Assembly: GCA_937923145.1 (NCBI GenBank)
Contig: CALAJT010000006.1
Location: 1-64,000, forward strand
Length of the DNA: 64,000 bases
Reading direction: 5' to 3'
Source: an uncultured Rubritalea sp.
Lineage (GTDB): Bacteria; Verrucomicrobiota; Verrucomicrobiia; Verrucomicrobiales; Akkermansiaceae
Position numbers and translations under genes: made by a program. Shown one piece after another: positions 27,016 through 41,098 of this stretch. The notes beneath the pieces are model-generated. The model made no database searches. It saw only the letters and a list, made by a program, of their open reading frames with translations, and was not told the origin of the DNA. The stretch's first letter is position 1; each line of letters starts with the position of its first letter.

Positions 27016-27576
27016 ATGAAATTTATGAAAAGACATTGGATCAAGTTAGTTGTAGTTGCAGGCATAGCTGCATTTGGGTTTACAGGATTAAATAGCTGCA
27101 CATCAGTTCCAGAGGGAATTAAACCAGTCACTGGATTTAACCAGCAAAAGTATCTTGGTAAGTGGTACGAGATAGCCCGTTTAGACCACAGATTCGAAAG
27201 AGGTCTGAGTAATGTTAGCGCTGAATACTCTGTCAAAGATGGTGGTGGTATTAAAGTTCTAAACCGTGGTTATGAAGATGAAAAGGGAGAATGGAGTGAA
27301 GCGGAAGGCAAAGCATATTTCGTTGATTCACCTGACAAGGCGCATCTCAAAGTATCCTTCTTCGGACCATTCTACGGCTCCTACGTAGTATTCGAACTAG
27401 ATGGAGACTACCAATACTCCTACGTCACAGGAAACTCCCGAGACTACCTCTGGTTCCTCTCGCGCACGCCGACTATCACTGCAGAGCAGAAGCAAGCATT
27501 CCTGAAAAAGACAAAGGACCTCGGCTTTGATACCGACGCCCTTATATTTGTAGATCAGGAAAAGAATGTGAAGTAA
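27016..27576 (+). CDS. bacterial lipocalin (Blc-like outer-membrane lipoprotein)
   Basis: I chose the ATG at 27016 (186 residues). The lipoprotein signal ends at LNSC. The lipocalin signature follows: YLGKWYEIARLDHRFERG, then the strands EGKAYFVDSPDKAHLKVSF and YVTGNSRDYLWFLSRTPTI. Blc-type lipocalins bind lysophospholipids and fatty acids and help maintain membrane lipids. Lipocalins are common members of ECF/ChrR-type photooxidative-stress loci, and this one lies at the edge of such a locus, convergent with the last gene of the lipid operon. Confidence 0.9.
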   Translation: MKFMKRHWIKLVVVAGIAAFGFTGLNSCTSVPEGIKPVTGFNQQKYLGKWYEIARLDHRFERGLSNVSAEYSVKDGGGIKVLNRGYEDEKGEWSEAEGKAYFVDSPDKAHLKVSFFGPFYGSYVVFELDGDYQYSYVTGNSRDYLWFLSRTPTITAEQKQAFLKKTKDLGFDTDALIFVDQEKNVK

Positions 27577-27698
27577 GTTCTTTTTAGCTCATGCCTGCGG
27601 CGTTAGACAGGATTATAAAGAATTTCACTTGGGTTGTAATTCTGTTAATTCTGAAAAATTTTGATAATTCTGTCTAAAGTATAGTCAGTGTAGACTCC

Positions 27699-28748
27699 TT
27701 ACTTCTTATTCTTAAATCTATAGTGAGAAACAAACCATTCCTCACCTTCTCTGAATCCCCATAGCTCGGCGCATGCCATGTAGAAGCAGCGCCAGTAGAC
27801 CCACCATTTTACAGACTGGTGCTTTCCGTAGGTTTCTTCGATGAGTGGATAGAGAGTTTCTTTGTTGGCATCCATGCGGTCTAACCATGCATTACTCGTG
27901 CGTTCATAATGGCTGCCGTTTACTTGCCAGTGGTCATCGATAGCTAGGTGGTCTTGGAAGTAGAGTAGCAGGTCATCGCTCGGCATTTGTCCGCCGGTGA
28001 AGAAATATTTACTCATCCAGTCGTCATCGCTCTCAATCTCGTAGTGATAGGAAGTATCCTTGTGGGTGAAAATGTGGACGAAGAGTGTGCCGTCTGGCTT
28101 CAGCCAGTTACTCACACGCTCTAACAGAAGTTGATAGTTCTTCATGTGCTCGAACATTTCTACAGAGACAACACGGTCAAATACGCTTTCACCTACGCCT
28201 TCGAAATCAATCATGTTGACTGTCTTAATAGTGACGTTATTTAGTCCGCGATCTTCTAGCTGAGAATTGATAAATTCTCTCTGAGTATTAGAGTTCGAAA
28301 TAGCGGTGATCTCTGAGTTCGGATAGTGCTTCGCCATCCAGAGTGTGAGAGATCCCCAGCCGCAACCGAGTTCCAAAATACGGTCGCCATCTTTGAGGGC
28401 TGCACGTTCACAAGTGAGCTTAAGCATACGAGCTTCTGTGACTTCGATATCATCGCTAGTCTCACCATCTTTCCAGTAACCTGAACTATATTTTAAATGT
28501 GGTCCTAGGCAACCTTGGAAGAATTTAGTTGGCAATTCGTAGTGCTGTTCATTCGCTTCATCAGTAGCTATAGCGAGTGGGCTATTTTTTAGATCTTCTA
28601 CATGCTTCATGAGTCCAGCTTGTCTGTCTTCGCAGTGGTCTGGGCGGACTTTTTCGAGTGTTTTAAGCAGTCGCTTACGGATTCCGTAGCGGATGAGTTT
28701 ATCGGGGATACGGTCGTTTTCTAGCCAGTCGTTAATGTCTAATTTCAT
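27699..28748 (-). CDS. CFA-type SAM-dependent methyltransferase (second copy in operon)
   Basis: This 349-residue protein is a divergent cyclopropane-fatty-acid-synthase relative. The SAM-binding motif is ILELGCGWGSLTLWMAKHYP. The VVSVEMFEHMKNY segment resembles the active-site Glu region, and YSSGYWKDGETSDDIEVTE is the substrate-cap motif before it. The C-terminus, with SVKWWVYWRCFYMACAELWG, is aromatic-rich. It lacks the long N-terminal domain of the first copy. Relatives methylate a double bond or a neighbouring carbon of membrane acyl chains. It is the last gene of the eight-gene operon and overlaps the DUF1295 gene by 4 bases (ATGA). The product could be cyclopropane, methyl-branched or furan acyl chains; which one cannot be told. 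Confidence 0.82.
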   Translation of the reverse strand: MKLDINDWLENDRIPDKLIRYGIRKRLLKTLEKVRPDHCEDRQAGLMKHVEDLKNSPLAIATDEANEQHYELPTKFFQGCLGPHLKYSSGYWKDGETSDDIEVTEARMLKLTCERAALKDGDRILELGCGWGSLTLWMAKHYPNSEITAISNSNTQREFINSQLEDRGLNNVTIKTVNMIDFEGVGESVFDRVVSVEMFEHMKNYQLLLERVSNWLKPDGTLFVHIFTHKDTSYHYEIESDDDWMSKYFFTGGQMPSDDLLLYFQDHLAIDDHWQVNGSHYERTSNAWLDRMDANKETLYPLIEETYGKHQSVKWWVYWRCFYMACAELWGFREGEEWFVSHYRFKNKK

Positions 28749-29533
28749 GATGATTTTTTAGGTTGTTTTTTGAACCAGGGCACGAAGGCGCTAGTGGTTT
28801 GTTGATATTTACGGTAGGCATCGCCCTTGCTTTTGAGCGATGATTTTTCGGCAGGGGGAATGCCGGAGACTTTGGTGAGAAGGATGATCATTAGGATGGG
28901 AGCGTGCATAGTGTAGACGCCTCCAGAAGATCCACAGGCGAATAGATAGATTCCAACCCAAATAACTGCTTCAAAGAAGTAGTTAGGGTGGCGGCTATAA
29001 TTCCATAATCCGACTTCGCAGATCTCCTTATTGGTATTCATTTTCTTAAATTTATTCAACTGGCTATCGGAAATACTTTCACCAATTAGACCAATTATAA
29101 AGACGCCCAATCCGATGAATTCTATAATAGATAATGCTGATCCATTTTTGGCTGAGTAGTAGAAGGGGAGTGAGAGCAGGAATACCAGAGTGGCATTAAT
29201 GAGGAATACGGCGAGGAAATTACGGTCTGCTTTCTCTGGTCCCCAATGATCACGAAGGCTCTTGTAACGCGGGTCTTCATCTGGGTGGTGAGAGTAGATG
29301 CGCTTAGCAAGATGAAGCCCAAGCCTCAGCGACCAGACTAATGCCATAGAGAGTAGTAGCCCTTTCCTAAGTAGAACAGCATCAAAGGTAATAAGGTAGA
29401 TAACAACAGGCACAGGCAAAGAGAGGGCCCACATTGCATCTACGATACTGACGTTTTTTATCTTTACAGAAATGAGCCAACCTACCATGAATATGACCGC
29501 TAAAATTATAGCTACAGTAATTAATAAGTTCAT
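28745..29533 (-). CDS. DUF1295 membrane protein (steroid 5-alpha-reductase-like)
   Basis: This 262-residue integral membrane protein has about six or seven spans and the DUF1295 signature: SLRLGLHLAKRIYSHHPDED, KEICEVGLWNYSRHPNYFFE and a late SGIPPAEKSSL. The conserved His, Asn and Tyr match the reductase/isoprenylcysteine-methyltransferase superfamily. Its partner genes are membrane-lipid enzymes, so reduction or methylation of a lipid is plausible. It overlaps both neighbours by 4 bases. It is one of the few genes here with a good Shine-Dalgarno (AAGGAG, 8 bases before the ATG), but that sequence is also coding in the gene upstream. Confidence 0.85.
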   Translation of the reverse strand: MNLLITVAIILAVIFMVGWLISVKIKNVSIVDAMWALSLPVPVVIYLITFDAVLLRKGLLLSMALVWSLRLGLHLAKRIYSHHPDEDPRYKSLRDHWGPEKADRNFLAVFLINATLVFLLSLPFYYSAKNGSALSIIEFIGLGVFIIGLIGESISDSQLNKFKKMNTNKEICEVGLWNYSRHPNYFFEAVIWVGIYLFACGSSGGVYTMHAPILMIILLTKVSGIPPAEKSSLKSKGDAYRKYQQTTSAFVPWFKKQPKKSS

Positions 29534-30072
29534 GCTGACTGCTCCTTAGTTAGATTTTTTCTAGCCTGATATTTTTTTAGAATACGTAAAAATATGAAGT
29601 AAAATAAGACAGCAAACCAAGGTGTAATGAGTGCCCAAGCTTCGATTCCATAGAGTGCAGTCATCCCAAAGTCTTTTGCAAATTGAGTCGGATCTGCTTT
29701 AAATTTACTAAGTAGTTCAGGAATACTAAAAGGGATGTTTTCTACACCATTCAGGTTTTCACCGGTTCGGATAAACACGAGAATAAGTCCGACATGAAGG
29801 GCGTAGAAAAGCGATTTGAATAAGATTAAAAATGGTATGTTTAGCTTTAAAATATAGCCGACAATCACACTCAGAATATTAGTCGTCCCTAGCACGGGAA
29901 AGGCAGAGATGACAGGTGCGACTGCCATCGTGAGTGCTACTTTCTCCACGGATGTTCCTTTAGTCAGCTGCTTCTTTATAGGTTTAACTACCAGCCGATT
30001 CCATATTCTACGGAATCTACTAGGAGATTTATTTTCTGTGAGATCTTGTGACAAGGCTATCGTAGGAGACAC
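29530..30072 (-). CDS. DUF2062 membrane protein
   Basis: This 180-residue membrane protein has a basic N-terminus (RRIWNRLVVKPIKKQLTK) and about three hydrophobic segments. The pattern VAPVISAFPVLGTTNILSVI followed by YILKLNIPFLILFKSLFYAL fits DUF2062. Function is unknown in the family; members often neighbour lipid or glycan genes. It lies 5 bases after the first CFA-type gene and overlaps DUF1295 by 4 bases. Confidence 0.75.
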   Translation of the reverse strand: MSPTIALSQDLTENKSPSRFRRIWNRLVVKPIKKQLTKGTSVEKVALTMAVAPVISAFPVLGTTNILSVIVGYILKLNIPFLILFKSLFYALHVGLILVFIRTGENLNGVENIPFSIPELLSKFKADPTQFAKDFGMTALYGIEAWALITPWFAVLFYFIFLRILKKYQARKNLTKEQSA

Positions 30073-30077
30073 TGTTT

Positions 30078-31340
30078 TTAGCGTGCAGGCACGAGTTTTT
30101 CGTTATTAGGCTTTGTATAGATAGCTTGTACTACGCTGATGTTTCTGGTAGCAAAGCCTGCTTCACAATACTTGAGATAGTAATTCCATTTACGGATGAA
30201 TGTCTCACTGAAGCCCTGTTTTCTTACAGTAGGGAGTTGCTCATTGAAGCGATCATACCATTCTGATAGTGTGCGAGCATAGTCTAGTCCCATATCGTCT
30301 ACTTGGAATGTGGTGAGTTCACCAGTCTGCTTCATCACCTGATTAAGTCGACCCAGAGAGATGAGGAGTGAGCCTGGGAAAATGTGTCTTTGGATAAAGT
30401 CTACACCTCGTTTTAGCTGGTCATAGCGGCAATCAGGAACGGTAATCATCTGTAGTCCTAGGGCACCTTCAGGTTTGAGTAGCTCATTACATTTCTTGAA
30501 ATATCCTGGTAAAAATTTATCACCAACAGCCTCTAACATTTCTATAGAAACGATGTGGTCAAACTTACCCTCAATCTCACGGTAGTCTTGTAACACGAGA
30601 TTTACCTTATCGCTGAGACTTGCATCTTTCACACGTTGGACTGCGTAGTTGAGTTGCTCTTGAGAAATAGTTACACCCTTGATGCTGACGCCGTAGTTTT
30701 TAGCAGCATGGCAGGCGAATCCTCCCCAGCCACAGCCGATTTCTAGAACTTCATCGCCCTCTTTGAGTTGGAGTTTACGGCAGAGTGCGTCGTATTTTTC
30801 AAATTGAGATTCTTCCAGAGTACAGTCTTCCGAAGTGAAGATGCCGCTAGAATAAGTCATGGATGGATCGAGGAATAACTTATAGAATTCGTTACCTAAG
30901 TCGTAGTGCTCAGAGATGTTTTTCTTGCTAGTACGGATCGTGTTTGCACGTGCGGCATGGAAAAGTTTGTTGAGGAACTTAAGCTTGTTCACTGCCTTCA
31001 GTTTACCAGATGAAGCTTTAGCACCCATCTTGATATTCATGTTACGGACAAACCATGTGATGACTGCTTTGATGTCTGGTGTGTCCCAGATTTTTTCCAT
31101 GTAGGCTTCTCCCATTCCTACATTTCCATAAGCGACACAGCGTCGGAAAAATTCCTTGTCGTCATTCAGCTGGATCTCGGCTTCTACAGCATGACCTGCT
31201 TCTCCATATTGCTGAGATGTGCCATCGCTATAGCGTAGCACTAAACCGCCCTGAGGCATAGAGGTGAAGAGTTTTTGAATGATTTTTTGTTGCCATCCGT
31301 AGTTGGTTTTTAAGGGGGAGTCTAGTGTGGTAGAGGACAT
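30078..31340 (-). CDS. cyclopropane-fatty-acyl-phospholipid synthase family methyltransferase
   Basis: This 420-residue protein has the full CFA-synthase layout: an N-terminal domain (about 1-120, with LVLRYSDGTSQQYGEAGH), the cap motif YDLGNEFYKLFLDPSMTYSS, the SAM motif VLEIGCGWGGFACHAAKNYG, and the catalytic SIEMLEAVGDKFLP. It also has GVDFIQRHIFPGS. It uses SAM to add a methylene or methyl group to unsaturated acyl chains in membrane phospholipids. In the operon it follows the desaturase, FAD oxidoreductase and DUF1365 genes, with 1 base between it and DUF1365. Related genes in Rhodobacter sphaeroides belong to the RpoE-ChrR singlet-oxygen response. Confidence 0.9.
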   Translation of the reverse strand: MSSTTLDSPLKTNYGWQQKIIQKLFTSMPQGGLVLRYSDGTSQQYGEAGHAVEAEIQLNDDKEFFRRCVAYGNVGMGEAYMEKIWDTPDIKAVITWFVRNMNIKMGAKASSGKLKAVNKLKFLNKLFHAARANTIRTSKKNISEHYDLGNEFYKLFLDPSMTYSSGIFTSEDCTLEESQFEKYDALCRKLQLKEGDEVLEIGCGWGGFACHAAKNYGVSIKGVTISQEQLNYAVQRVKDASLSDKVNLVLQDYREIEGKFDHIVSIEMLEAVGDKFLPGYFKKCNELLKPEGALGLQMITVPDCRYDQLKRGVDFIQRHIFPGSLLISLGRLNQVMKQTGELTTFQVDDMGLDYARTLSEWYDRFNEQLPTVRKQGFSETFIRKWNYYLKYCEAGFATRNISVVQAIYTKPNNEKLVPAR

Positions 31341-31341
31341 A

Positions 31342-32130
31342 TTATTTTTCTGTTAGAGAGTGATGAGGTCGGATTACCTGAGTTTGTTGGTGCGCAGTTT
31401 TGCGCTTATTTGAAATAGGAAATTTGCGTATCCACATGAGCAATGCATGCCAATGGATCAGGAATATAATACGCATTGTGAGTAATGGATAGCGGAAAAG
31501 ATACCAGACTAGTCTGGAGGTAGTGATCGGCTTCTGGTGTCCACGAATAGTGCTCACAAGGACGATGCCTTCGTCGTCGAGATCATTGATATTGACCGAC
31601 CACTTTTCATTACGCGTACCTATCTGGAAATCGAATTGATCGTCGATTTTTGAAAAGGGAGAAACGTAGAAATCTTTAGCAGTTTCACGTCTGAACCAAT
31701 CGCGTTTATCTTTGGTGTCTATCAGGAACATTTTCTTTTCAAGGAAAGTGTTTCCTACTTCCGCTACTGTTGCTAGGGCAGTGCCATTTTCATCTTCTAG
31801 GTAGTAAAAAGAAACGGGGTTAAACTGATAACCGAAGATTCTAGGGAAGGTCTGCAAGATGTAGCGAGAGACTTTACTGGTGTCGAAATCCTGCTCTTCT
31901 AGAAATGCAATGAGCTTCTTTTTAATCGATGTGTAGCCCTGACCTAGATAGTCCTCGTCCTTTATCGCGTAGAGGTTCAAGCTGTTTCTGCTGAATAGCC
32001 AATGCTTGTCTGCCAACTCATCTAGCTCATCTAAATCGAGCGATAACATGAAGACAGAATAAGAGAACTGACGCTTTACAGGCTTCAGTCTCTTATGATA
32101 AATCTTGCATTGGTAGAGAGACGAATTCAT
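31342..32130 (-). CDS. DUF1365-family protein
   Basis: This 262-residue protein has the DUF1365 pattern: LYQCKIYHKRLKPVKRQFSY at the start, SYSVFMLSLDLDELDELADK, RIFGYQFNPVSFYYLEDENG, and KDFYVSPFSKIDDQFDF. Members almost always sit between an FAD oxidoreductase and a CFA-type methyltransferase, as here. The biochemical role is unproven; acyl-chain or lipid handling is inferred from context. It overlaps the oxidoreductase gene by 4 bases and is followed after 1 base by the methyltransferase gene. Confidence 0.88.
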   Translation of the reverse strand: MNSSLYQCKIYHKRLKPVKRQFSYSVFMLSLDLDELDELADKHWLFSRNSLNLYAIKDEDYLGQGYTSIKKKLIAFLEEQDFDTSKVSRYILQTFPRIFGYQFNPVSFYYLEDENGTALATVAEVGNTFLEKKMFLIDTKDKRDWFRRETAKDFYVSPFSKIDDQFDFQIGTRNEKWSVNINDLDDEGIVLVSTIRGHQKPITTSRLVWYLFRYPLLTMRIIFLIHWHALLMWIRKFPISNKRKTAHQQTQVIRPHHSLTEK

Positions 32131-33422
32131 TTCCAGACATCTCTTCCTAGTAGAGTTTCGCAGAGGTTGACTGCTGAGAGTAGACCATCTTCATGGAAGC
32201 CATAGCGTTGCCAAGCTCCACAGTAAAAGGTGTTGGTTTTCTGCTGTCCTAGTGCATGCAGAGCGGGGATTTTCTTCTGCGCTTCGATAGCTGCTAGATC
32301 GAAGAGTGGGTGTTGGTAATCAATGGTTCTGAGGACATTTTTAGGAGTCGTTTCAGGATTGATCGAGACAAAGTAGTTTTCATTTTTCGAAACGCCTTGG
32401 AGTGAATTCATCCAATAAACTGTCGAGCTAGTGAGTCCTGATCCTGACTCGGTGATACGATAGTTCCATGATGCCCAGCAGGGCTTGTTCTTCGGCATCA
32501 CACTAGTGTCGGTGTGCATGACTGCTAGGTTTAGCTGATATTGGAAAGCGGAGAGAATTTCGATTTCAGAGTCGGTAGGGTCAGAAAGTAGCTTTAGCGA
32601 ATCATCTCCATGGGTAGCCAAAATTACTTGATCATAGACCGCAGAACCATTCTTGCTGATCACTCTAACAGATCCATTTTCTCTGACGATGGAAGTCACT
32701 GGATTATTGATCTGAATACGGTCTTTAAATGGCTGAATGACCTTAGCTACGTAGTTTTTAGCTCCACCGCACACAGTGCGCCATTGCTTACGTTTATCTA
32801 CAGCTAGGAAGCCATGATTTTTCCAAAATCGCATGAGAGTGATTGCAGGAAATTTCTCGATCTTCTCAGGTGGGCTAGACCATACCGCAGATGCCATTGG
32901 CACGAGATACCAGCGGAGAAAATTTTCACCATAGCCACGATGCTCGACATATTCTCTGAGTGTCATGTGATGTAGAGATTCATTTTCTATATCCTCAAGA
33001 GCATCTGAATTGAAGCTCTTGATTTTAAAGAGCATTTTCCAGAATTTGAGGTTGAAAATATTCTTACGCTGACCGAAAATCTCATTAAGTTTACCGCCAT
33101 TAAATTCTAACCCATCAGGGAAATGGTTGACACTGAAAGACATGCTAGTCTCTTTAGTCTCCACTCCGAGTTCTTTAAAAAGTCGTGTAAGGTGAGGATA
33201 AGTGTCCTCATTATAAACCATGAATCCCGTATCGATTGGGATGTCTTTATCACCTTCTTTAACAGTGACTGTGTTGGTGTGTCCACCTATGTAGTCGTTC
33301 GCTTCATAAAGTGTTAGATCTGCTTCATCTTTAAGAAAGTGAGCACAGCCTAAGCCAGAAATTCCTAAACCGATGATAGCGATAGAGGGTTTTTTATCTG
33401 TGGATGTCGTTGAAGATTTCAT
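32127..33422 (-). CDS. FAD-dependent amine-oxidase-type oxidoreductase
   Basis: This 431-residue flavoprotein opens with the FAD-binding motif IAIIGLGISGLGCAHFL and LYEANDYIGGHTNTV, then PIDTGFMVYNEDTYP. The late FYCGAWQRYGFHEDGLLSAV closes the FAD site. It belongs to the group found with DUF1365 and CFA-type genes in photooxidative-stress loci. In Rhodobacter sphaeroides, as I recall, a related desaturase/oxidase acts on methylated acyl chains on the way to furan fatty acids; whether this protein does so is inference. It lies 7 bases after the desaturase gene. Confidence 0.88.
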   Translation of the reverse strand: MKSSTTSTDKKPSIAIIGLGISGLGCAHFLKDEADLTLYEANDYIGGHTNTVTVKEGDKDIPIDTGFMVYNEDTYPHLTRLFKELGVETKETSMSFSVNHFPDGLEFNGGKLNEIFGQRKNIFNLKFWKMLFKIKSFNSDALEDIENESLHHMTLREYVEHRGYGENFLRWYLVPMASAVWSSPPEKIEKFPAITLMRFWKNHGFLAVDKRKQWRTVCGGAKNYVAKVIQPFKDRIQINNPVTSIVRENGSVRVISKNGSAVYDQVILATHGDDSLKLLSDPTDSEIEILSAFQYQLNLAVMHTDTSVMPKNKPCWASWNYRITESGSGLTSSTVYWMNSLQGVSKNENYFVSINPETTPKNVLRTIDYQHPLFDLAAIEAQKKIPALHALGQQKTNTFYCGAWQRYGFHEDGLLSAVNLCETLLGRDVWK

Positions 33423-33429: not shown

Positions 33430-34377
33430 TTAATGTTTATGATCTTCTAACAGTTCTTTAGGAACTCTCTTAAGATCCTTAATGAGACCGATCATTGACA
33501 TGAATTTTAAGCCGTAATAAGTAATATCTATCTCCCACCAGCGGAAACCTTGACGTGTGCTATGCGGATAACGGTGGTGGTTATTATGCCAGCCTTCACC
33601 TAGAGTAATAAATGCGAGGATTAAGCTGTTTTTAGAGTCATCCTTAGTTTTAAAACGCTGCTTTCCCCATACATGTGCCATCGAATTAATCATTAACGTG
33701 CCATGAAGTAAGAACACAGTGCTGACAAAAAACGTCCAGACGAAGAATTGCCCTGCGGTGACTCCTAATGTAGGGTAAACAGTTTCTAAAAAGTAACCAA
33801 TTCCATACACCACGATACCATAGATCACTGGCACTAGTTGATCGAAGCGGTTGAGAAAGACGAGTTCAGGAAATTTGGAGAGGTCCTTAATACGTTTGTA
33901 ATCAGTAGGGAAATTACGTTTACAAGTAATCCAACCGATGTGTGACCACCAGAAACCTTGAACTCCTGGTGAGTGAAGATCTTCTTCAGTGTCTGAGTGC
34001 TGGTGATGGTGGCGGTGATTTGCTGCCCACCACAGTGCGCCGCGTTGCATCGAAGTATTTCCCCACACTGCTATGATGAACTGCATCACGCGTCCTGTCT
34101 TGAAAGTGCGGTGAGAGAAGTAGCGATGGTAGAATCCAGTGATGGCGAACATTCTCACAATGTAGAGAATGACGGCAGCGATTACTGCTGTGGGACTCCA
34201 CCCTACCCAGATGAGTAAAATGAGCCCTGCGTGGAGGATAATGAACGGAATACAGCGTTCCCAATCTACTTTCGCCTCAAGCTCTTTTGGGTTCTTGATT
34301 GTATTATAATCAGAATCCAACCAGTGCTTGAACATATCGGCAACTCTAGAAGATGTAGATGTTTTATGGGAGTTCAT
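33430..34377 (-). CDS. membrane fatty-acid desaturase (acyl-CoA delta-9 type)
   Basis: This 315-residue membrane protein has the three histidine boxes of di-iron desaturases: HRYFSH (HxxxxH), HRHHHQHSDTEEDLHSP (HxxHH type), and HNNHHRYPHSTRQG. Hydrophobic segments around residues 50-90 and 190-230 fit four spans. The family inserts a cis double bond, usually at delta-9, with oxygen and an electron donor. Placed in front of two CFA-type methyltransferases, it probably supplies their unsaturated substrate. It lies 17 bases after the NTF2-like gene in the operon. Confidence 0.9.
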   Translation of the reverse strand: MNSHKTSTSSRVADMFKHWLDSDYNTIKNPKELEAKVDWERCIPFIILHAGLILLIWVGWSPTAVIAAVILYIVRMFAITGFYHRYFSHRTFKTGRVMQFIIAVWGNTSMQRGALWWAANHRHHHQHSDTEEDLHSPGVQGFWWSHIGWITCKRNFPTDYKRIKDLSKFPELVFLNRFDQLVPVIYGIVVYGIGYFLETVYPTLGVTAGQFFVWTFFVSTVFLLHGTLMINSMAHVWGKQRFKTKDDSKNSLILAFITLGEGWHNNHHRYPHSTRQGFRWWEIDITYYGLKFMSMIGLIKDLKRVPKELLEDHKH

Positions 34378-34394: not shown

Positions 34395-35030
34395 TTAGAG
34401 GCGTTTTTTAATCATACGAATACCACCACCTATAATTGGTACATGTTCGAACATGCCGCTGACTGAATCCCAATAATCTTGATGTAACACTGCTTTACCT
34501 TGCTGGTCAAATACTACGTAAGTAATGCCAATTGATTCTATTTCTTTGCCACTAGCAAGCTTAGGTGCTGAGAATTTCATCGTCCAGCGGATGTAGTGAC
34601 CTTGATCTGTGGATGCGATATCTTCGATCTCCACTGAGTAAGTATTCATCGTCTCCGAGGTTTTCAGGAAATGTTCCTTTATTTCCTCTCGGTTGTGGAG
34701 AGATTTAAGTGTATCATTGAGGTAAGCATCTTTGGAATACACATTTGCAACTTCCTTTTCGATATACTCTGCTGATCCTATACCCTGTAAAAATTCAGTG
34801 AATCGATCAAGCGCTGCTTTGGTTTCGGCTTCAGATAGGTTGACTGACTTAGTCTGGGCTAGTTTCTCTGATTTAACTTTGTGAAATGTCTGTGATTGTT
34901 GGTTCATCGTTGTGTTTTGGCTACATCCAGTAATACAAAAGATGCCGATGCATAGGCTGAAACCTATCCATCCCACCCAAGGGAATACTGATTTAAATAT
35001 TGATCGTTTCTTCTGAGGTCGCTCACTCAT
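34395..35030 (-). CDS. NTF2-like (SnoaL-type) lipoprotein, first gene of the lipid operon
   Basis: This 211-residue protein has a hydrophobic N-terminal segment (about 16-35) with a possible lipobox ITGC. The C-terminal part (about 70-200) fits an NTF2-like fold: ALDRFTEFLQGIGSAEYIEK, EIKEHFLKTSETM, GHYIRWTMKFSAP and a late QGKAVLHQDYWDSVSGMFEH. Proteins of this type are regular members of ECF/ChrR loci; their role is unknown and may be binding of a hydrophobic ligand. Its ATG lies 11 bases after the CGTT of a candidate ECF promoter, so the operon mRNA may be leaderless. Confidence 0.82.
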   Translation of the reverse strand: MSERPQKKRSIFKSVFPWVGWIGFSLCIGIFCITGCSQNTTMNQQSQTFHKVKSEKLAQTKSVNLSEAETKAALDRFTEFLQGIGSAEYIEKEVANVYSKDAYLNDTLKSLHNREEIKEHFLKTSETMNTYSVEIEDIASTDQGHYIRWTMKFSAPKLASGKEIESIGITYVVFDQQGKAVLHQDYWDSVSGMFEHVPIIGGGIRMIKKRL

Positions 35031-35040
35031 ATATTTAATG

Positions 35041-35067
35041 AACGCTATTAGATTGGAAATGGATGCA
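35041..35067 (-). promoter_or_regulatory. candidate ECF-sigma promoter of the eight-gene lipid operon
   Basis: On the minus strand TGCATCC (35067..35061) and CGTT (35044..35041) are exactly 16 bases apart. The identical pair with identical spacing stands before the ECF sigma gene at 38860-38886. The expected start of transcription is next to the ATG at 35030. The match is seen in the sequence; recognition by the local sigma factor is inferred. Confidence 0.65.
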
Positions 35068-35132
35068 ACTATTTATCTTCAGAGCATAGAATATAATTTT
35101 TCAATAGTTTCTGAAAAAATAGTCATTTCTAT

Positions 35133-35167: not shown

Positions 35168-35878
35168 ATGAAAAGCAAAAATATTCTCATCGTAGGTGGA
35201 AACAGTGGCATAGGGGCAGTTCTGGTAGAAAAATTTGTAGCAAACGGTGACTCAGTTCATTTAGCGCTTAGGCAGCCATCAGCAGTAGCTCAGCCAGTTG
35301 CAAGCATCCAAGAATATGATGCTCTTCATAAAAATGAATCTCAGCTCCAGATGCCCGAGAGTCTAGACGCTTTGATATATTGCCCAGGTTCTATTCAGCT
35401 CAAACCTTTCCATCGCACAGACGATACTCAGATGCTAAACGATATGGAAGTTAATGCTTTTGGAGCTGCTCGTATGATACAGGCTGCATTACCAGCACTT
35501 AAAAAATCTACTCTAGCAGGTGGTGCCTCGGTAGTCCTATTTTCCTCAGTTGCTGCTCAAACCGGTTTGGCATTTCATTCATCTATCAGTATGGCAAAGG
35601 CTGCTGTGGAAGGTCTCACGCTCAGTCTAGCCAGCGAATTAGCGCCTAATAATATAAGGGTAAATACTATCGCTCCATCACTCACCGACACTCCGCTAGC
35701 ATCCATGTTATTAAACTCAGATGCTAAACGTGAAGCCGCTGGTAGTAGGCACCCTCTTAAGCGAGTCGGCACAGCAAATGGAGTCGCAGGTATGGTAAAC
35801 TATCTCATCAGTGAAGATGCGGCATTCGTGACAGGGCAGATAATGAAGCTAGATGGCGGACTAAGTTCACTCCGATAA
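35168..35878 (+). CDS. short-chain dehydrogenase/reductase family protein lacking the catalytic Tyr
   Basis: This 236-residue Rossmann protein opens ILIVGGNSGIGAVLVEKF, the SDR nucleotide motif. It has VVLFSSVAAQTG with the catalytic Ser, and a C-terminal GQIMKLDGGLSSLR. At the YxxxK position the sequence reads HSSISMAKAAVEGL, so the Lys is kept but Tyr is replaced by Ile (codon ATC). It may bind NAD(P) without classic reductase chemistry, or use another acid. Members of this type recur in photooxidative-stress loci. It directly abuts the next gene (stop 35876-35878, next ATG 35879). Confidence 0.85.
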   Translation: MKSKNILIVGGNSGIGAVLVEKFVANGDSVHLALRQPSAVAQPVASIQEYDALHKNESQLQMPESLDALIYCPGSIQLKPFHRTDDTQMLNDMEVNAFGAARMIQAALPALKKSTLAGGASVVLFSSVAAQTGLAFHSSISMAKAAVEGLTLSLASELAPNNIRVNTIAPSLTDTPLASMLLNSDAKREAAGSRHPLKRVGTANGVAGMVNYLISEDAAFVTGQIMKLDGGLSSLR

Positions 35879-37354
35879 ATGATGTTAGAAAATACATCTA
35901 AAACTGTATTAGTTACAGGAGCTAATGGCTATATAGGAATGCGCTTGCTACGCACTCTTGCGGAAAATGGGCATCATGTCATAGCGGTGGTACGAAATAA
36001 GAATCGTCTCAGGGAGGCATTAGTAGAGTCACTCGGTGATCAACTTACCATTATAGAAGCGGACTTAAATGACGAAGAACTACCTGAAATAAAACTTAAT
36101 GTAGACGCCGCCTACTACCTGCTCCACTCCATGACATCAGAGGGAGACTTCATGGAAAAAGAAGCTCAATGTGCTAACAATTTCGTGGAATGGGTGAAAG
36201 GCACAGGATGTAGACAAATCGTCTACCTTGGAGCCCTAATGCCTGAAAATGTTGAGGGTGATGACCTCTCAAAACACCTTAAGTCCCGAGAGATAGTACA
36301 TGAAATCTTAGAAGCATCTGAGATGCCTCTCACTACACTACGCGCTTCTATTATTGTAGGCAGCGGCAGTGCTAGCTTTGAGATGATTCGTGATTTGGTA
36401 GAGAAATTACCTATATTGATTACCCCTAAATGGGTCAATACAATGTGTCAGCCGATAGCGATTCGTAATATGATTCACTATTTAGTGGAGGTAATTCAAA
36501 ATGAAGCATGTCTAGGACAAGATTACGATGTGGGGGGGCCTGAGCAACTAACCTACCGCGATATGCTCCTACGTTATGCGAAAATTCGTAAGCTTAAGAG
36601 ACTGATCATTCCCGTGCCGTTTTTTAGCCCTAAACTATCTTCCCATTGGCTTCAGCTTCTTACCGCAACTAACTATTACCTAGCTAGAAACCTAGTAGAC
36701 AGCCTAAGTATGAAGACTGTCTGTAGTGACAATGAGATCACTAAAGTCATTCCTCAAACTCTACTTACTTACGATGAAGCTATCGAGAAGGCATTCTCTA
36801 AAATAGCCCAAAATTTAGTGCCGTCCACATGGTATGGTTCACTAGTGAGCGGCTCTCTAACCCATAAACAGCTACTCAATGTAGAAGTGCCTACTCATGG
36901 AGTATATGTGGACGAGCGTTCAAGAGAACTTGGCGTAAGCAAGGAAGAATGTATCGACGCCATCTGGAGTCTTGGCGGTAAATCAGGCTGGCCGTCAATG
37001 CACTGGGCTTGGATGATTCGTGGTATGCTGGACAAGATGTTGGGAGGCATAGGGATGCGCAGAGGCAGGCGACACCCTACGGATTTGAGCAACGGAGATG
37101 CACTAGATTTCTGGAGAGTCATCATGGCTGACCGTGAGCAGGGGAGGCTTATCCTCTATGCAGAAATGAAACTCCCAGGAGAAGCTTGGCTGGAATATTC
37201 TATAGAAGAAAATGAACTGCATCAGAAAGCAACATTTCGCCCTACGGGATTAATGGGAAGGCTCTACTGGATCAGCGTTTATCCGCTCCATCTCATCATA
37301 TTCCCGCAGATGAACAAACGTCTAGCCAATGGCTGGAAAGATAGAAAATCATAA
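35879..37354 (+). CDS. NmrA/epimerase-type Rossmann protein with DUF2867 domain
   Basis: This 491-residue protein has an N-terminal NAD(P)-binding domain (VLVTGANGYIGMRLLRTLAE, later AYYLLHSMTSEGDFMEKEAQ). The C-terminal region (about 330-490) fits DUF2867, with SLGGKSGWPSMHWAWMIRGM and a final RPTGLMGRLYWISVYPLHLI. This fusion is common in marine bacteria; its substrate is unknown, though membrane lipid or isoprenoid conversion has been suggested by context only. It abuts the SDR gene and overlaps the photolyase start by one base (TAATG). Confidence 0.85.
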   Translation: MMLENTSKTVLVTGANGYIGMRLLRTLAENGHHVIAVVRNKNRLREALVESLGDQLTIIEADLNDEELPEIKLNVDAAYYLLHSMTSEGDFMEKEAQCANNFVEWVKGTGCRQIVYLGALMPENVEGDDLSKHLKSREIVHEILEASEMPLTTLRASIIVGSGSASFEMIRDLVEKLPILITPKWVNTMCQPIAIRNMIHYLVEVIQNEACLGQDYDVGGPEQLTYRDMLLRYAKIRKLKRLIIPVPFFSPKLSSHWLQLLTATNYYLARNLVDSLSMKTVCSDNEITKVIPQTLLTYDEAIEKAFSKIAQNLVPSTWYGSLVSGSLTHKQLLNVEVPTHGVYVDERSRELGVSKEECIDAIWSLGGKSGWPSMHWAWMIRGMLDKMLGGIGMRRGRRHPTDLSNGDALDFWRVIMADREQGRLILYAEMKLPGEAWLEYSIEENELHQKATFRPTGLMGRLYWISVYPLHLIIFPQMNKRLANGWKDRKS

Positions 37355-38832
37355 TGAAGCTAGGACTAATTTACCCACACCAACTTTTCGAAAAGCATCC
37401 GGTGATAGAGCAAAGCGATGAGCAGTATCTTGTCGCAGACTCTATCATCATAGGAGGAGATGAAGAATGGCCACTGAAACCTCACGCTCAGAAACTTCTG
37501 CTGCACATCGCATCCATGCGAGCTTATGCAGAGCGGTTTTCGCTTAAATTGGTGATGTCTCTAGATGAGATTAAGCTAGAGAAATATTCTGAGACCGTAG
37601 TCTGTAGACTATTCGATGATATTTTAGAAAGGCGATTACGAGCGAAGTTTGAGACATTTACAGAACTAGAATCACCCGGATTCGTAACGCCTAAAGAATG
37701 GGGAGAGAGCTTTTTTAATACGGATAAGAAGCCATTCATGAAGACCTTCTACGAAGCCCAGCGAAAGCGCATGGACATCCTAATAGATCCTAATGGAGAT
37801 CCCACTGGCGGACGCTGGAGCTATGATGATGAAAATAGGAAGAAGTTCCCATTAAAAGAAACACCACCTGAAGAGCCAGATTTTAAAGCTACTAAAAAAG
37901 AGCAAGATTATATCACTGAGGCAAAGAAAGAGATTAAAAAAATGAAACTGGAGACGGTCGGGGATGATAAAAAATTCCGCTATCCTATTACTCATAAAGC
38001 CGCTAGAAAATGGTTAGAGGATTTTCTTCTCACTAGGTTTGATCGCTTCGGGACTTATGAAGATGCGATTTCCCACCGCAGTAAGTTTCTCTACCATTCA
38101 GTGCTCACTCCAATGTTAAACGCAGGGCTTTTAACTCCACTAGAGATTGTAGACAGAGCATTAGAAGTAGCAGAAGAAAGAGACATTGAGATTAATAACC
38201 TGGAAGGGTTCATAAGGCAGATTATCGGCTGGAGGGAGTTCATGAGTATCATGTATCTGAAACATGGGCGCTATCTGAGAACGCAGAACTTCTGGGAGTT
38301 TAAGGACTCGATGCCCAATTCTATTTACAAGCTAAAGACAGGAATTCCACCTGTAGATGACGTTCTAGAAAAAGTGAATCAAGAAGGTTATGGACACCAT
38401 ATCGAGCGCCTTATGATCATGGGGAACTTCTTCATGCTGTTACGTATCAAGCCAGACGATGTATTCCAATGGTTCTCCGAATTCTTCGTAGATGCCTACG
38501 ACTGGGTGATGGTGCCAAATGTTTACGGCATGAGCCAGTTCAGCGATGGAGGACTCATGGTGACAAAACCCTATATCAGCGGATCGAACTACATCCGCAA
38601 GATGTCTGACTACAAAGCGGGTGATTGGTGCGATGTCTGGGATGCTCTCTTTTGGAGTTTTATCGATGACCATAGAGATTATTTCTCCAAACAATATAGA
38701 ATGAAAATGATGGTGAGCCATTTAGTAAAAATGGGAGGTGAAAAGCTAGCTCAGCATCATAATGTGGCAGCGGATTATAGAAAGAAGCTTCAAGATGGTG
38801 GGTTTCTGGGAGATGATTTAGAACTGCTATAA
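37354..38832 (+). CDS. prokaryotic photolyase/cryptochrome-like protein without Fe-S cysteines
   Basis: This 492-residue protein fits the photolyase-related family of PhrB/CryB (FeS-BCP): LGLIYPHQLFEKHP at the start, then KWLEDFLLTRFDRFGTYEDA, LYHSVLTPMLNAGLLTP, IGWREFMSIMYLKHG and YDWVMVPNVYGMSQFSDGG. FeS-BCP relatives hold a [4Fe-4S] cluster with four Cys, three of them in a loop after KPYISG-type sequence. Here that loop reads KMSDYKAGDWCDVWDALFW, and the whole protein has only two Cys, so the cluster cannot form in the usual way. It should bind FAD and repair (6-4) or other UV photoproducts. Cotranscribed with the two Rossmann genes, it ends 28 bases before the ECF promoter. Confidence 0.9.
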   Translation: MKLGLIYPHQLFEKHPVIEQSDEQYLVADSIIIGGDEEWPLKPHAQKLLLHIASMRAYAERFSLKLVMSLDEIKLEKYSETVVCRLFDDILERRLRAKFETFTELESPGFVTPKEWGESFFNTDKKPFMKTFYEAQRKRMDILIDPNGDPTGGRWSYDDENRKKFPLKETPPEEPDFKATKKEQDYITEAKKEIKKMKLETVGDDKKFRYPITHKAARKWLEDFLLTRFDRFGTYEDAISHRSKFLYHSVLTPMLNAGLLTPLEIVDRALEVAEERDIEINNLEGFIRQIIGWREFMSIMYLKHGRYLRTQNFWEFKDSMPNSIYKLKTGIPPVDDVLEKVNQEGYGHHIERLMIMGNFFMLLRIKPDDVFQWFSEFFVDAYDWVMVPNVYGMSQFSDGGLMVTKPYISGSNYIRKMSDYKAGDWCDVWDALFWSFIDDHRDYFSKQYRMKMMVSHLVKMGGEKLAQHHNVAADYRKKLQDGGFLGDDLELL

Positions 38833-38859
38833 ATATTTTTTAAGAAAAGAAACAGCCAG

Positions 38860-38886
38860 TGCATCCAAAACGAAATCTTTTTCGTT
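38860..38886 (+). promoter_or_regulatory. candidate ECF-sigma promoter of the sigma gene (autoregulatory)
   Basis: TGCATCC (38860-38866) and CGTT (38883-38886) are 16 bases apart, the same as before the lipid operon at 35067..35041. The spacer and CGTT lie inside a perfect inverted repeat. Autoregulation by the ECF factor is the natural reading and is usual for this sigma group. Confidence 0.65.
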
Positions 38887-38888
38887 TT
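38867..38888. promoter_or_regulatory. perfect 9-bp inverted repeat inside the ECF promoter
   Basis: AAAACGAAA and TTTCGTTTT flank a 4-base TCTT loop and cover the spacer and the CGTT element. It could be an operator for a second regulator or a weak terminator for the photolyase transcript. It is absent from the lipid-operon promoter. Confidence 0.5.
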
Positions 38889-38967
38889 AAGATTGATGAC
38901 ACAAGCATTAACACCTTCTATCTTCATAAAGCTTTTCATAGAAAACCTTTGTTTAGAAAGTAAGCTC

Positions 38968-39534
38968 ATGGAAGAAGAGAATAATAAAACTACTGAAATT
39001 GATGATTCAGCTGCTGTAGCAAAGTTGCTAGGGCGTGTTGCTAATCATGATAAGTCAGCGTTTAGTGAATTGTATAAGACTCACTCAGGTATGCTCATGT
39101 CCGTGATTCAGGCGGTGTTAAAAGACATTGCTGAATCTGAGGACATTCTTCAGGATTCGTTCATCACGATTTGGAATAAAGCTGAAATGTATCAATCGCA
39201 TCTTGGAAATCCTACAAGTTGGATGATAACGATTGCTAAAAATAAAGCCTATGACCGTTACCGTAAATTGGTGCGCAAGACCGAGGGCATGAAAGTGCTC
39301 AAAGAAAATATGGTCAAACCGACTACTGTACTACCTCCCAAGCTAGACAACGAAAAGTTAGCTCAAGGATTTAATGATCTTAATACAGATCAGAAGGAAG
39401 CTATAGAGCTTGTTTTCTATCAGGGATACACTCAGCAAGAAGCTGCGGAGAAGCTAGACGCTCCGCTGGGAACAGTGAAGGCAAGAATCCGTAGAGGGTT
39501 GCTCAAACTTAAACAAATAATTTCTAACAATTAA
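38968..39534 (+). CDS. ECF sigma factor of the RpoE-ChrR (ECF11/12-like) type
   Basis: This sigma-70-family factor has region 2 (FSELYKTHSGMLMSVIQAVL ... SEDILQDSFITIWNKAE ... PTSWMITIAKNKAYDRYRKL) and region 4 (QKEAIELVFYQGYTQQEAAE ... LGTVKARIRRGLLKLKQ), with no other domains. I prefer the ATG at 38968 (188 residues). A TTG/ATG start at 38893-38896 would add a hydrophobic stretch unlike sigma factors, but would sit right at the predicted transcription start, so a leaderless longer form cannot be excluded. A ChrR-like gene follows after 13 bases. It probably drives its own operon and the eight-gene lipid operon in response to photooxidative stress. Confidence 0.9.
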   Translation: MEEENNKTTEIDDSAAVAKLLGRVANHDKSAFSELYKTHSGMLMSVIQAVLKDIAESEDILQDSFITIWNKAEMYQSHLGNPTSWMITIAKNKAYDRYRKLVRKTEGMKVLKENMVKPTTVLPPKLDNEKLAQGFNDLNTDQKEAIELVFYQGYTQQEAAEKLDAPLGTVKARIRRGLLKLKQIISNN

Positions 39535-39547
39535 CGACATCTATATT

Positions 39548-40186
39548 ATGGAAAAAGATCAAATACAAGATATGGCAGTCGAATATGCTACTGAGGGACT
39601 CAGTGCTGAACACAAGGTAGTATACGACATGTGGGTCATTTCAGCCAGTGATGCTGATAAGCAAGTTTTTTCAGATATGATAGATACCTGTGCCGAACTT
39701 TCGATTCAAGGCTTAGCTGATACAGCGGTCTCTGGTCACGTGAAAGAGAAGATTTTAAAGAGTGTAGAAACGCTGGGAACTACTGCACCTATCGTAAGAA
39801 TGATTCCTAAAGAAGATCAGGAATGGATCAACCTACCTATCAGAGGAGCGAAGATGAGTGAACTCTCAGCTCGGAAAGAAGACGGTTTTGCAATGACCAT
39901 GATCGAAATCACTGCCGGTTCAGAATTTCCCGAGCATGATCACCACGGTGTAGAAATGGCTTATATTTTAGAGGGCGATCTCGAAGCTGACGGAGTGATT
40001 TTACATGCAGGAGACTTCCTGCGTGCAGATGCAGGCTCTCACCACGGTAAACATTTTTCACCTAATGGCTGCCGTGCACTTATCGTCACTGCAAATGAGA
40101 ATTATCATCACAAGACGGTGAAAGCTCTAGACTCAGTCCAGAAAGTTTACCGTAAAGTGAAGAATGTTTTCGCTAAATCATCTTAA
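39548..40186 (+). CDS. ChrR-like cupin anti-sigma factor without the zinc anti-sigma motif
   Basis: This 212-residue protein follows the sigma gene as ChrR follows rpoE. The C-terminal cupin (about 82-190) keeps ligands in exactly the ChrR spacing: H130, H132, E136 and H166, equivalent to H141, H143, E147 and H177 of Rhodobacter sphaeroides ChrR as I recall them. The N-terminal anti-sigma domain (about 1-75) aligns at YATEGLS with ChrR YAAGTLS, but the HxxxCxxC zinc motif is replaced (DMWVISASDAD). Only two Cys remain, C48 and C175. It should hold the sigma factor until singlet oxygen or a related signal acts on the cupin. How it folds without zinc is an open question. Confidence 0.87.
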   Translation: MEKDQIQDMAVEYATEGLSAEHKVVYDMWVISASDADKQVFSDMIDTCAELSIQGLADTAVSGHVKEKILKSVETLGTTAPIVRMIPKEDQEWINLPIRGAKMSELSARKEDGFAMTMIEITAGSEFPEHDHHGVEMAYILEGDLEADGVILHAGDFLRADAGSHHGKHFSPNGCRALIVTANENYHHKTVKALDSVQKVYRKVKNVFAKSS

Positions 40187-40231
40187 AAACTACTTTTTTC
40201 TCGAACTCTCCCAACCCACCTGGCCGTAAGC

Positions 40232-41098
40232 ATGAGTTGTAAAAAAGTAATTTATAAAGGAAGCATTTGTGCTCTCATTTTTTCTGCTGGTATAGTTTCT
40301 AACAGCTGCAGTCCGGCTAGTAATACTGCCGCCGCTGAAAAGCAGATTAAAGTAGGATACAAGAGCTCTAAGGATATTGTGTTTACTCCCGAAGCCTGGC
40401 CAGAAGATGTAAAAGGAGATCTATACCAGCCAAGAATAGTGGGGAAATCTCCCGTTGTTTTATTAGTACACGGTGGCGGATGGGCTGAGAATGATAACCG
40501 TTACCAGATGACTGGGATAGCTAAAACCTTAGCCAAAAGAGGCTACACGGTCTTCAATGTAACCTACAGATTAGCACCCCAATATAATTTTCCTGCACCA
40601 GTCGATGACCTATACCAAGCTATCAAATATCTGAAGAAAAATGAGCAAGTGCTGAATATAGATATGAATCGCCTAGGGGTCTTCGGCTACTCAGCTGGAG
40701 GACATCTCGCTGAATTAGTAGCTATGCGAGATATGCCTAATGGTGTGAAAATCAAAGCTGTCGTCGCTGGAGGAACACCACACTTTATGAGAGTCGACCC
40801 AGACTTCCACATGGTGAAAGCTCTCATCGGAAAATCATTCGATGAAGATCCAACACCTTATTACAAAGCGACCCCAGTAGATCAAGTGACGTCAAATTTC
40901 CCCCCAGTCTTTATCTACCACGGAGCTGAAGACCAACTCGTCCCTACTCTGCATGTGCACAAGTGGGTCAAGCGTCTAGAAGAGCTTAATGTGGAGTATG
41001 AACTCTACTGGGTGAAAGGTAGAGGTCACATTGGCACTTTCCTATTGCCAAGCCAGTCTATCAATAAGTCGATAGAGTTTTTCGATAAAAAGCTTTAG
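40232..41098 (+). CDS. alpha/beta-hydrolase lipoprotein (esterase/lipase-like)
   Basis: This 288-residue protein has a lipoprotein-type signal (lipobox SNSC near residue 26) and an esterase domain: oxyanion motif LLVHGGGWAEND, nucleophile elbow GVFGYSAGGH with catalytic Ser, Asp in YHGAEDQLVP, and His in GRGHIGTF. The family cleaves small ester substrates such as acyl esters. It starts 45 bases after the ChrR-like gene without a terminator between, so it may be part of the sigma operon and act on damaged or modified lipids, which is inference. Confidence 0.88.
   Translation: MSCKKVIYKGSICALIFSAGIVSNSCSPASNTAAAEKQIKVGYKSSKDIVFTPEAWPEDVKGDLYQPRIVGKSPVVLLVHGGGWAENDNRYQMTGIAKTLAKRGYTVFNVTYRLAPQYNFPAPVDDLYQAIKYLKKNEQVLNIDMNRLGVFGYSAGGHLAELVAMRDMPNGVKIKAVVAGGTPHFMRVDPDFHMVKALIGKSFDEDPTPYYKATPVDQVTSNFPPVFIYHGAEDQLVPTLHVHKWVKRLEELNVEYELYWVKGRGHIGTFLLPSQSINKSIEFFDKKL

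Follow-up and report, generated by a model that had tools for sequence, protein, structure and literature searches.

Furan fatty acids (FuFAs) are formed on phospholipid chains by three enzymes, the cyclopropane fatty acid (CFA)-type methylase UfaM, the flavin (FAD) desaturase UfaD and the DUF1365 protein UfaO, whose functions were proven in Rhodobacter sphaeroides and Rhodopseudomonas palustris and which yield monomethyl products that receive a second methyl group from FufM (Lemke 2020, PMC7380195; this and the other papers given by PMC number are cited from the parts of their text that were available). According to the same source, unbranched 18:1 is not converted by UfaD, UfaO is required for the furan, R. 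palustris FufM expressed alone in R. sphaeroides gives the dimethyl product, and three genes of the RSP1087-1091 operon are dispensable for synthesis. Both the furan genes and rpoE-chrR of R. sphaeroides respond to singlet oxygen and exert feedback on the loss of ChrR, and sigma-E also responds to tert-butyl hydroperoxide (PMC6852236). Gene sets of comparable make-up are found in the alga Chlamydomonas, where CFA1, CFA2/CPLD27, DUF1365, DUF1295, DUF2177 and fasciclin genes are among the SAK1-dependent genes induced by singlet oxygen (PMC4067076, which in another table names CFA2/CPLD27 a coclaurine N-methyltransferase), and in Pseudomonas, where a LitR cluster brings together phrB, ufaM, an SDR gene and an FAD oxidoreductase gene and where blue light induces phrB and ufaM (PMC9758184). 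The locus described here (positions 27,016 to 41,098) lies in a 64,000-nucleotide stretch, hereafter the window, of contig CALAJT010000006.1 from an uncultured Rubritalea sp. of the Verrucomicrobiota (assembly GCA_937923145.1; 2.7 Mb, 92% complete), and by homology its eight-gene operon is likely to make FuFAs under the control of an extracytoplasmic function (ECF) sigma factor.

The window shares the three enzymes with the R. sphaeroides and R. palustris systems, the D-O-M neighbourhood with R. palustris (RPA2571-2570-2569), a likely stress-sigma control with R. sphaeroides, and a photolyase-family gene nearby; it differs from them in belonging to another phylum, in its sigma and anti-sigma factors, and in being a single operon that also holds a desaturase, DUF1295, a coclaurine-methyltransferase-like methylase, DUF2062 and an NTF2-like gene. 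The Chlamydomonas set, by comparison, is that of an alga without an operon, matched here by domain names with no sequence compared, and the Pseudomonas cluster is governed by LitR regulators and not by a sigma/anti-sigma pair. The operon runs on the minus strand from 35030 to 27699, with intergenic gaps of 17, 7, -4, 1, 5, -4 and -4 bases, while on the plus strand SDR, NmrA/DUF2867 and photolyase-family genes (35168-38832) are followed by sigma, cupin anti-sigma and esterase genes (38896-41098). A first-pass annotation, made from the sequence alone, had placed all these genes correctly and had described the operon gaps as 17 bases or less or 4-base overlaps, which agrees with the open reading frame (ORF) positions and the Pfam domains (lipocalin, two CMAS, DUF1295, DUF2062, DUF1365, Amino_oxidase, FA_desaturase, SnoaL/NTF2-like, SDR, NmrA with DUF2867, DPRP photolyase-related, ECF sigma, ChrR-type cupin and BD-FAE esterase). 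The operon genes, in order of transcription, are:

34395..35030, minus strand: NTF2/SnoaL-like protein, by eye with an anchor or lipobox at its N-terminus, gene 1 of the putative FuFA operon and first behind its promoter-like site (Pfam SnoaL_2)
33430..34377, minus strand: fatty acid desaturase (PF00487), which may provide UfaM with its cis-unsaturated chain
32127..33422, minus strand: ufaD-like, FAD-dependent methyl-fatty-acyl desaturase, 38% identical over 429 amino acids (2e-105) to the UfaD of Luteovulum azotoformans, whose gene adjoins rpoE
31342..32130, minus strand: ufaO-like, DUF1365 furan-forming oxygenase (PF07103), 32% identical over 229 amino acids (3e-35) to the L. azotoformans UfaO, whose gene adjoins ufaD
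30078..31340, minus strand: ufaM-like, S-adenosylmethionine (SAM)-dependent unsaturated fatty acyl methylase, 42% identical over 387 amino acids (3e-102) to the photolyase-linked L. azotoformans UfaM
29530..30072, minus strand: DUF2062 membrane protein (PF09835, barely above cut-off)
28745..29533, minus strand: DUF1295 membrane protein, steroid-5-alpha-reductase-related (PF06966, PF02544), proposed as a furan-lipid component from co-occurrence
27699..28748, minus strand: second SAM methyltransferase, coclaurine-N-methyltransferase-like (PDB match) and probably FufM-type, also by co-occurrence

The reference loci were fetched with the R. sphaeroides sigma-E sequence, and the best of them is that of L. 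azotoformans, whose proteins are close relatives of the R. sphaeroides proteins and not the assayed proteins themselves. In this species the UfaD and UfaO genes are divergent from rpoE, an arrangement like that of RSP_1090/91 upstream of rpoE-chrR in R. sphaeroides (PMC7074977), and the UfaM gene lies elsewhere in the genome, adjoining a photolyase gene. The two CMAS genes of the window genome are both at this locus. The operon desaturase, which is 49% identical to the desaturase of an Acinetobacter plasmid cassette, had been taken in the first-pass annotation as the operon's own supplier of substrate; it may act so, yet the genome holds three FA_desaturase genes, two besides the operon copy, and a role as the sole source of unsaturation is not supported for this reason.

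Searches among relatives recovered UfaO in 34 of 98 genomes, the window genome included, and in 7 of the 11 other members of the genus. In the regions fetched for 20 of the other 33 UfaO-positive relatives, some of which are cut by contig ends, the order ufaD-ufaO-ufaM was found 20 times out of 20, with a desaturase upstream of ufaD in 19, DUF1295 and then a methylase downstream in 19, DUF2062 detected in 15 and an NTF2-like gene upstream in 12. Such a conserved order is not expected from chance.

The first-pass annotation had regarded the locus as a stress-sigma operon that modifies acyl chains through generic CFA remodelling; its first half is upheld by the promoter-like sites and the co-occurrence described below, while by homology the product would instead be FuFAs. 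An ordinary operon for cyclopropane or methyl-branched fatty acids, in which DUF1295 would saturate a methylene or methyl-alkene intermediate to yield a methyl branch, could account for the membership of UfaM in the CMAS family, for its best PDB matches being cyclopropane synthases, for its best NCBIfam model being a cyclopropane synthase (112 bits below the cut-off), and for the relationship of DUF1295 to reductases. A cyclopropane synthase is not known to need either UfaD or UfaO, and cyclopropane synthesis as the main product was set aside because homologues of both adjoin UfaM in all 20 loci; the failure of UfaD to convert unbranched 18:1 and the need for UfaO in furan formation (PMC7380195) also speak against this alternative, which we consider very improbable.

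The FuFA reading is extended to the downstream genes by their co-occurrence in a phylum sample of 194 genomes, of which 46 carry DUF1365. The last methylase was found in 38 genomes, all 38 of them with DUF1365, and strong DUF1295 matches (E below 1e-40) in 44, of which 43 have DUF1365, with p-values of 8e-33 and 3e-38, respectively, in Fisher tests that treat related genomes as independent and that therefore overstate them. A 39th methylase genome, G412, was dropped because what matched there is its UfaM gene, and its DUF1295 frame is broken (42 of 43 without it), while seven of the 51 genomes matching DUF1295 were dropped as weak partial matches. Eight genomes have DUF1365 without the methylase and three without a strong DUF1295, and the families represented number 19 for DUF1365, 15 for the methylase (14 without that of G412) and 18 for DUF1295. 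The association also holds where DUF1295 and the methylase are on other contigs than ufaD and ufaO (e.g., G416 and G449), and it recurs in three proteobacterial classes, including named plasmid records of Acinetobacter, Caballeronia, Rhizobium and Mesorhizobium, the Rhizobium record having no full UfaM gene annotated in the stretch shown.

It could be argued that DUF1295, DUF2062 and the last methyltransferase are mere neighbours with no function in the furan pathway, given that R. palustris FufM was sufficient for the dimethyl product and that three genes of RSP1087-1091 are dispensable (PMC7380195). The co-occurrence, which persists on separate contigs and in the three proteobacterial classes, and the promoter-like site that the pair retains when located elsewhere (see below) make this explanation unlikely, less so for DUF2062, with its 15 of 20 loci. 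The proposal in the first-pass annotation that DUF1295 is an additional part of the system gains from the same two lines of evidence.

Both methylases of the operon had been called CFA enzymes, which suits the first, UfaM-like one; the second is of another branch, with coclaurine N-methyltransferases as its best PDB relatives (6e-78), far ahead of the cyclopropane synthases (6e-35), and is 27% identical to UfaM. FufM (RPA0924 in R. palustris) is 26% identical to UfaM (PMC7380195) and has a plant relative, AT4G33110, at 37.9% (PMC10940516). The last operon gene is probably a FufM-type second furan methylase.

The DUF1295 protein has a Pfam link to the steroid 5-alpha-reductases (4.5e-10), and its 43-row profile matched the PDB entries 7c83 and 7bw1 in a portion of the C-terminal half, at around 1e-4. 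Comparable matches in the same part to a chain named AtTam46 and to an isoprenylcysteine methyltransferase mean that the shared fold is supported and not the reaction. DUF1295 would be a further enzyme of the pathway, probably a C=C reductase that acts on a furan-lipid product. Steroid 5-alpha-reductases reduce enones, and singlet oxygen opens the furan ring to an ene-dione. A bolder version, to which we give little credence, is that DUF1295 makes the furan lipid a reusable trap for singlet oxygen, in that the ene-dione would be reduced to a 1,4-dione and the ring re-closed to the furan by a Paal-Knorr reaction, possibly with the help of the NTF2/SnoaL-like protein. If this were true, the operon would be an NADPH-paid membrane redox cycle found from bacteria to algae, and not a one-shot scavenger.

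The control of the operon is approached through the upstream regions of the operon and of the sigma gene, which have the motif TGCATCY-N16-CGTTY in common. The features concerned are:

35040..35067, minus strand: promoter-like site of the putative FuFA operon, TGCATCC-N16-CGTTC (motif search)
38860..38887, plus strand: promoter-like site of the sigma gene, TGCATCC-N16-CGTTT (motif search)
38896..39534, plus strand: ECF sigma factor (Pfam; SigK is the best NCBIfam model, below cut-off), possible start ATG 38896, alternative 38968
39548..40186, plus strand: anti-sigma factor, an anti-sigma part without zinc motif (no HxxxCxxC) plus a ChrR-type cupin (Cupin_7)
40232..41098, plus strand: esterase lipoprotein (BD-FAE), probably co-transcribed with sigma and anti-sigma

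This strict motif occurs twice in the window, where the expected number is 0.03, a value that is only a guide, as the motif was drawn from the same sequences, and three times in the whole genome (once for the reversed control), the third inside an ORF of 463 amino acids. Across the genus, all eight cassette-bearing genomes have a looser form, GCATCY-N16-CGTT, before the operon, and all six genomes in which a sigma gene was found have it before that gene, five of these six sites being strict. With a spacer of 15 to 17, the looser pattern gave 32 matches in the scanned loci, 15 before the operon or sigma (one of them preceding the sigma gene of L296, a non-genus locus) and 17 elsewhere, and 15 sites have nine invariant positions and a largely free spacer. 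The strict pattern has 28 sites in the 12 genus genomes (11 for the reversed control), of which nine precede sigma or the operon and four are in other intergenic regions, namely before the DUF1295-methylase pair of G010, before a fasciclin gene and a PEP-CTERM-like gene (by eye) of G004 and before an RpoD-like sigma gene (by eye) of G010. The four genus members without a UfaO found (G005, G007, G008 and G011) have 1, 0, 2 and 1 strict matches, all four inside ORFs.

The DUF1295 and methylase genes of G010 (62% and 83%) are found on a separate contig, 39 kb of which precede them, and keep a strict promoter-like site of their own away from the operon. The cassette contig of this genome ends around 315 bases past DUF2062, and a second copy of the pair may be located there.

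A similar layout is found in the Alphaproteobacteria, where TGATCC-N13..18-TAR is present towards rpoE in 47 of 71 ufaD-rpoE intergenic regions and towards ufaD in 17, and where the examples printed read TGATCC-N16-CGTA. Compared with this ECF11 form, the window TGCATCY-N16-CGTT has the same layout, with one extra base and one changed. The sigma factor of the window would read the TGCATCY-N16-CGTTY sites, and its possible ATG at 38896 begins 9 bases past the end of one of them, an upstream in-frame ATG being also present in L307, L313 and L322.

Some other genes were observed behind such sites. A fasciclin-domain gene lies 64 bases behind a strict site in a single genome (L306, G004 C20), and fasciclin also occurs near the Mesorhizobium cassette and in the singlet-oxygen lists of R. 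sphaeroides and Chlamydomonas, as far as the available texts show. An RpoD-like sigma gene (by eye) found 109 bases behind a strict site, again in one genome (L326, G010 C58), recalls the RpoE-RpoHII cascade. Outside the genus, promoter-like sites are found before sigma in L296 and near the cassette in L045 and L050, the looser site in the latter (G084) being near 13037, a short distance ahead of a lipocalin-like match, itself upstream of the cassette desaturase.

The sigma and anti-sigma factors had been understood in the first-pass annotation as an ECF-ChrR pair of the R. sphaeroides type, an identification that does not hold, as the anti-sigma is not a zinc ChrR and the sigma is nearer to SigK. 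In the PDB, the sigma matches SigK with 75 bits and sigma-E with 61, its best NCBIfam model is SigK (138 bits, cut-off 226), and it is 34% identical to a Caballeronia sigma, compared with 28% to the R. sphaeroides-type sigma-E. The zinc motif was sought in the anti-sigma proteins of 17 loci, the window copy (L273) included and L288 uninformative as a short cupin piece; no HxxxCxxC (the ChrR ligands are H6, H31, C35 and C38) was found in the window, in five other genus proteins or in the other aligned anti-sigmas, and by eye none of these residues is present in the alignment of the six genus proteins. The homologues L283, L285 and L286, outside the genus, have an HCxxC of different spacing, and 67 of 80 alphaproteobacterial ChrR proteins have HxxxCxxC by a crude count. 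What remains of the annotated ChrR likeness is the cupin (Cupin_7, 1.4e-16), which keeps its metal ligands, with H-x-H-x3-E (the H-x-H and E by pattern, their spacing and a late His by eye), and the ChrR model TIGR02451 is matched by the cupin part only, with 43 bits and a cut-off of 124.5. A canonical ECF11-ChrR pair was rejected by the missing zinc motif and this cut-off.

When eight N-terminal pieces were scanned with RskA_N (cut-off 27), L280 reached 26.5 bits, L282 21.9 bits and L279 an E of 0.3, with no match in the window protein or in two other genus proteins; in the window anti-sigma, a cupin stands in place of RskA_C. We read this protein as a hybrid in which an RskA-like sigma-binding part without zinc is fused to the ChrR sensor. 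R. sphaeroides ChrR needs zinc to inhibit its sigma, and the anti-sigma domain of RseA folds without zinc (PMC6852236), so inhibition of the sigma by a zinc-less anti-sigma remains plausible. The esterase gene is found behind chrR also in L035, L291 and L292, and in Mesorhizobium an alpha/beta hydrolase (27%) is likewise behind ChrR.

Regarding the distance between the gene set and the sigma, which the first-pass annotation had expected to be short in related genomes, sigma and anti-sigma lie within around 5 kb of the operon in four of the eight genus genomes (window, G002, G003 and G010); they are on another contig in two (G004 and G006), and no anti-sigma was found in two incomplete genomes (G001, 58% complete, and G009, 83%). 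The link between sigma and operon is not established in the cassette regions read outside the genus.

The signal itself would be singlet oxygen by analogy with R. sphaeroides. It may also be that the furan operon is real and that the sigma answers mainly another stress, such as organic peroxide, metal or envelope damage, light being incidental, which we hold, tentatively, to be a serious possibility. The answer of R. sphaeroides sigma-E to tert-butyl hydroperoxide (PMC6852236) would fit this, as would an anti-sigma unlike ChrR and a photolyase operon with no sigma-type site; it is opposed by the gene set of the same domain names that singlet oxygen induces in the alga (PMC4067076), and by the strict site before fasciclin, in G004 only, a gene that is induced in Chlamydomonas and that appears as RSP_1409 in the RpoE regulon table of PMC7074977.

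Several observations weigh against a sigma-controlled furan operon that responds to singlet oxygen. The identity of UfaO is modest, at 32%, and falls to 23% with the Acinetobacter UfaO. The operon sites are strict in only four of the eight genomes, the other four deviating; 15 of the strict sites of the genus are inside ORFs of more than 120 amino acids, and 24 of the 71 alphaproteobacterial regions have no match towards rpoE. The closeness of the sigma to SigK, and the absence from the window anti-sigma of the zinc ligands on which inhibition by R. sphaeroides ChrR depends, mean that a singlet-oxygen signal cannot be assumed, and no sigma was detected in those cassette regions that were read outside the genus. 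In the Alphaproteobacteria, the link of the methylase is weak, with matches (E below 1e-30) in eight of 190 genomes, that of G186 being doubtful at 31%, and DUF1365 in six of the other seven compared with 93 of 190 overall (p 0.06), and most alphaproteobacterial DUF1365 genomes lack such a methylase. Finally, a search of the open-licence literature for furan fatty acid with Verrucomicrobi, outside which most subscription papers fall, returned only diet, gut and animal-microbiota titles and no lipid analysis of such an organism.

The photolyase genes and the lipocalin had also been counted as parts of the system. These features are:

35168..38832, plus strand: SDR - NmrA/DUF2867 - photolyase-family operon (Pfam), apparently under other control, with no sigma-type site upstream
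35098..35117, no strand: inverted repeat TTTTCA-N8-TGAAAA, candidate operator, which precedes the photolyase operon
26983..27576, plus strand: lipocalin lipoprotein (PF08212), convergent neighbour of uncertain membership

The motif search in the window and in the genus upstream regions revealed no sigma-type site before the photolyase operon, which has a different upstream element; the arms of the inverted repeat are exact in the window, L033 and L036, and a related repeat is seen by eye in L035. No promoter-like site was found for the lipocalin in the window, nor was a lipocalin detected beside the cassette in seven other genus loci, and lipocalins recur in distant cassettes. The whole locus as one regulon is not supported, because the photolyase operon and the lipocalin lack the site.

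The photolyase (37354-38832) belongs to the FeS-BCP/(6-4) family by the PDB entries 9hnk and 4dja, and its only cysteines are Cys84 and Cys426, which leaves it without the four that we take to hold the iron-sulphur cluster. Aligned with its Acinetobacter homologue, the window protein lacks the loop that bears Cys438 and Cys441, has another residue in place of Cys350 and has Cys426 near the position of Cys454. The relatives L035 and L036, and likewise the partial L033, have one cysteine (430) past residue 340, and, given so few cysteines, the cluster seems to have been lost.

Proteobacterial cassettes allow a wider comparison. That of the Acinetobacter piscicola plasmid pYH12207-1 (NZ_CP048660) shares the order lipocalin, desaturase, UfaD, UfaO, UfaM, DUF1295 and methylase, and has a photolyase and an NTF2-like gene nearby, as in the window; it differs in that no sigma/anti-sigma and no DUF2062 are annotated in the stretch and a histidine kinase follows. 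This plasmid (L269), typed as mobilizable, carries the whole furan cassette and the photolyase, and a chalcone-isomerase-like gene adjoins its NTF2-like gene; in other Acinetobacter species, too, the methylase is found on plasmids. The Caballeronia sp. NK8 cassette shares sigma (34%), anti-sigma, DUF1295, methylase, lipocalin, UfaD, UfaO and UfaM, but its anti-sigma has RskA_C and no cupin, and no desaturase is annotated in the stretch. The Mesorhizobium terrae plasmid shares sigma, ChrR, the alpha/beta hydrolase, DUF1295, methylase, UfaD, UfaO, UfaM and lipocalin; it also has a fasciclin gene, and it is unlike the window in its divergent layout and in an anti-sigma with HxxxCxxC.

Elsewhere in the window, genes of the Amuc_1101 (55428-57260) and Amuc_1098 (59526-62129) families, both above the NCBI cut-offs and presumably named after Akkermansia, corroborate the verrucomicrobial type of the genome given in the first-pass annotation. 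The region around them (54688-62860) has the appearance of an Akkermansia-type pilus cluster, and at 6260-12164 an SNF2-type helicase gene is divergent from that of a large Ser/Thr protein kinase.

The homology, order and co-occurrence of the genes and their shared promoter-like sites are observed, and from them we infer the chemistry, the reading of the sites by the sigma, the stress signal, the release of the anti-sigma and the role of DUF1295. In the mechanism so proposed, the ECF sigma would be held by the cupin-bearing anti-sigma until photo-oxidative stress, in the form of singlet oxygen or lipid hydroperoxides, inactivates the latter, and the freed sigma would transcribe the FuFA operon as well as its own from the TGCATCY-N16-CGTTY promoters. 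The desaturase may supply a cis double bond on the phospholipid acyl chains, which UfaM would methylate, UfaD would add the second double bond, UfaO would close the ring to a furan by inserting an oxygen derived from O2, and a second ring methyl would probably be added by the last methyltransferase in a FufM-like manner. The furan chain would scavenge singlet oxygen and may feed back on the release of the sigma, as reported for R. sphaeroides.

By its sequence, this is a known furan pathway in a phylum for which the literature search above found no report. Its gene set is extended and conserved, and promoter-like sites link it to a sigma factor. In the open-licence literature, DUF1295 together with DUF1365, singlet oxygen or cyclopropane fatty acid led only to PMC4067076, which, in its available text, lists the gene without a furan-lipid link, and a later review (PMC8491031) says that lipid changes of this kind are being sought in Chlamydomonas. 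Lemke (PMC7380195) works out the synthesis in two alphaproteobacteria and predicts homologues elsewhere; the window adds what appears to be the full furan set as one conserved operon in another phylum, in which DUF1295 and a second methylase are regular companions and a likely sigma control can be read from the promoter-like sites. The uncharacterised DUF1295 family would thereby yield a specific enzyme candidate for which an assay can be defined.

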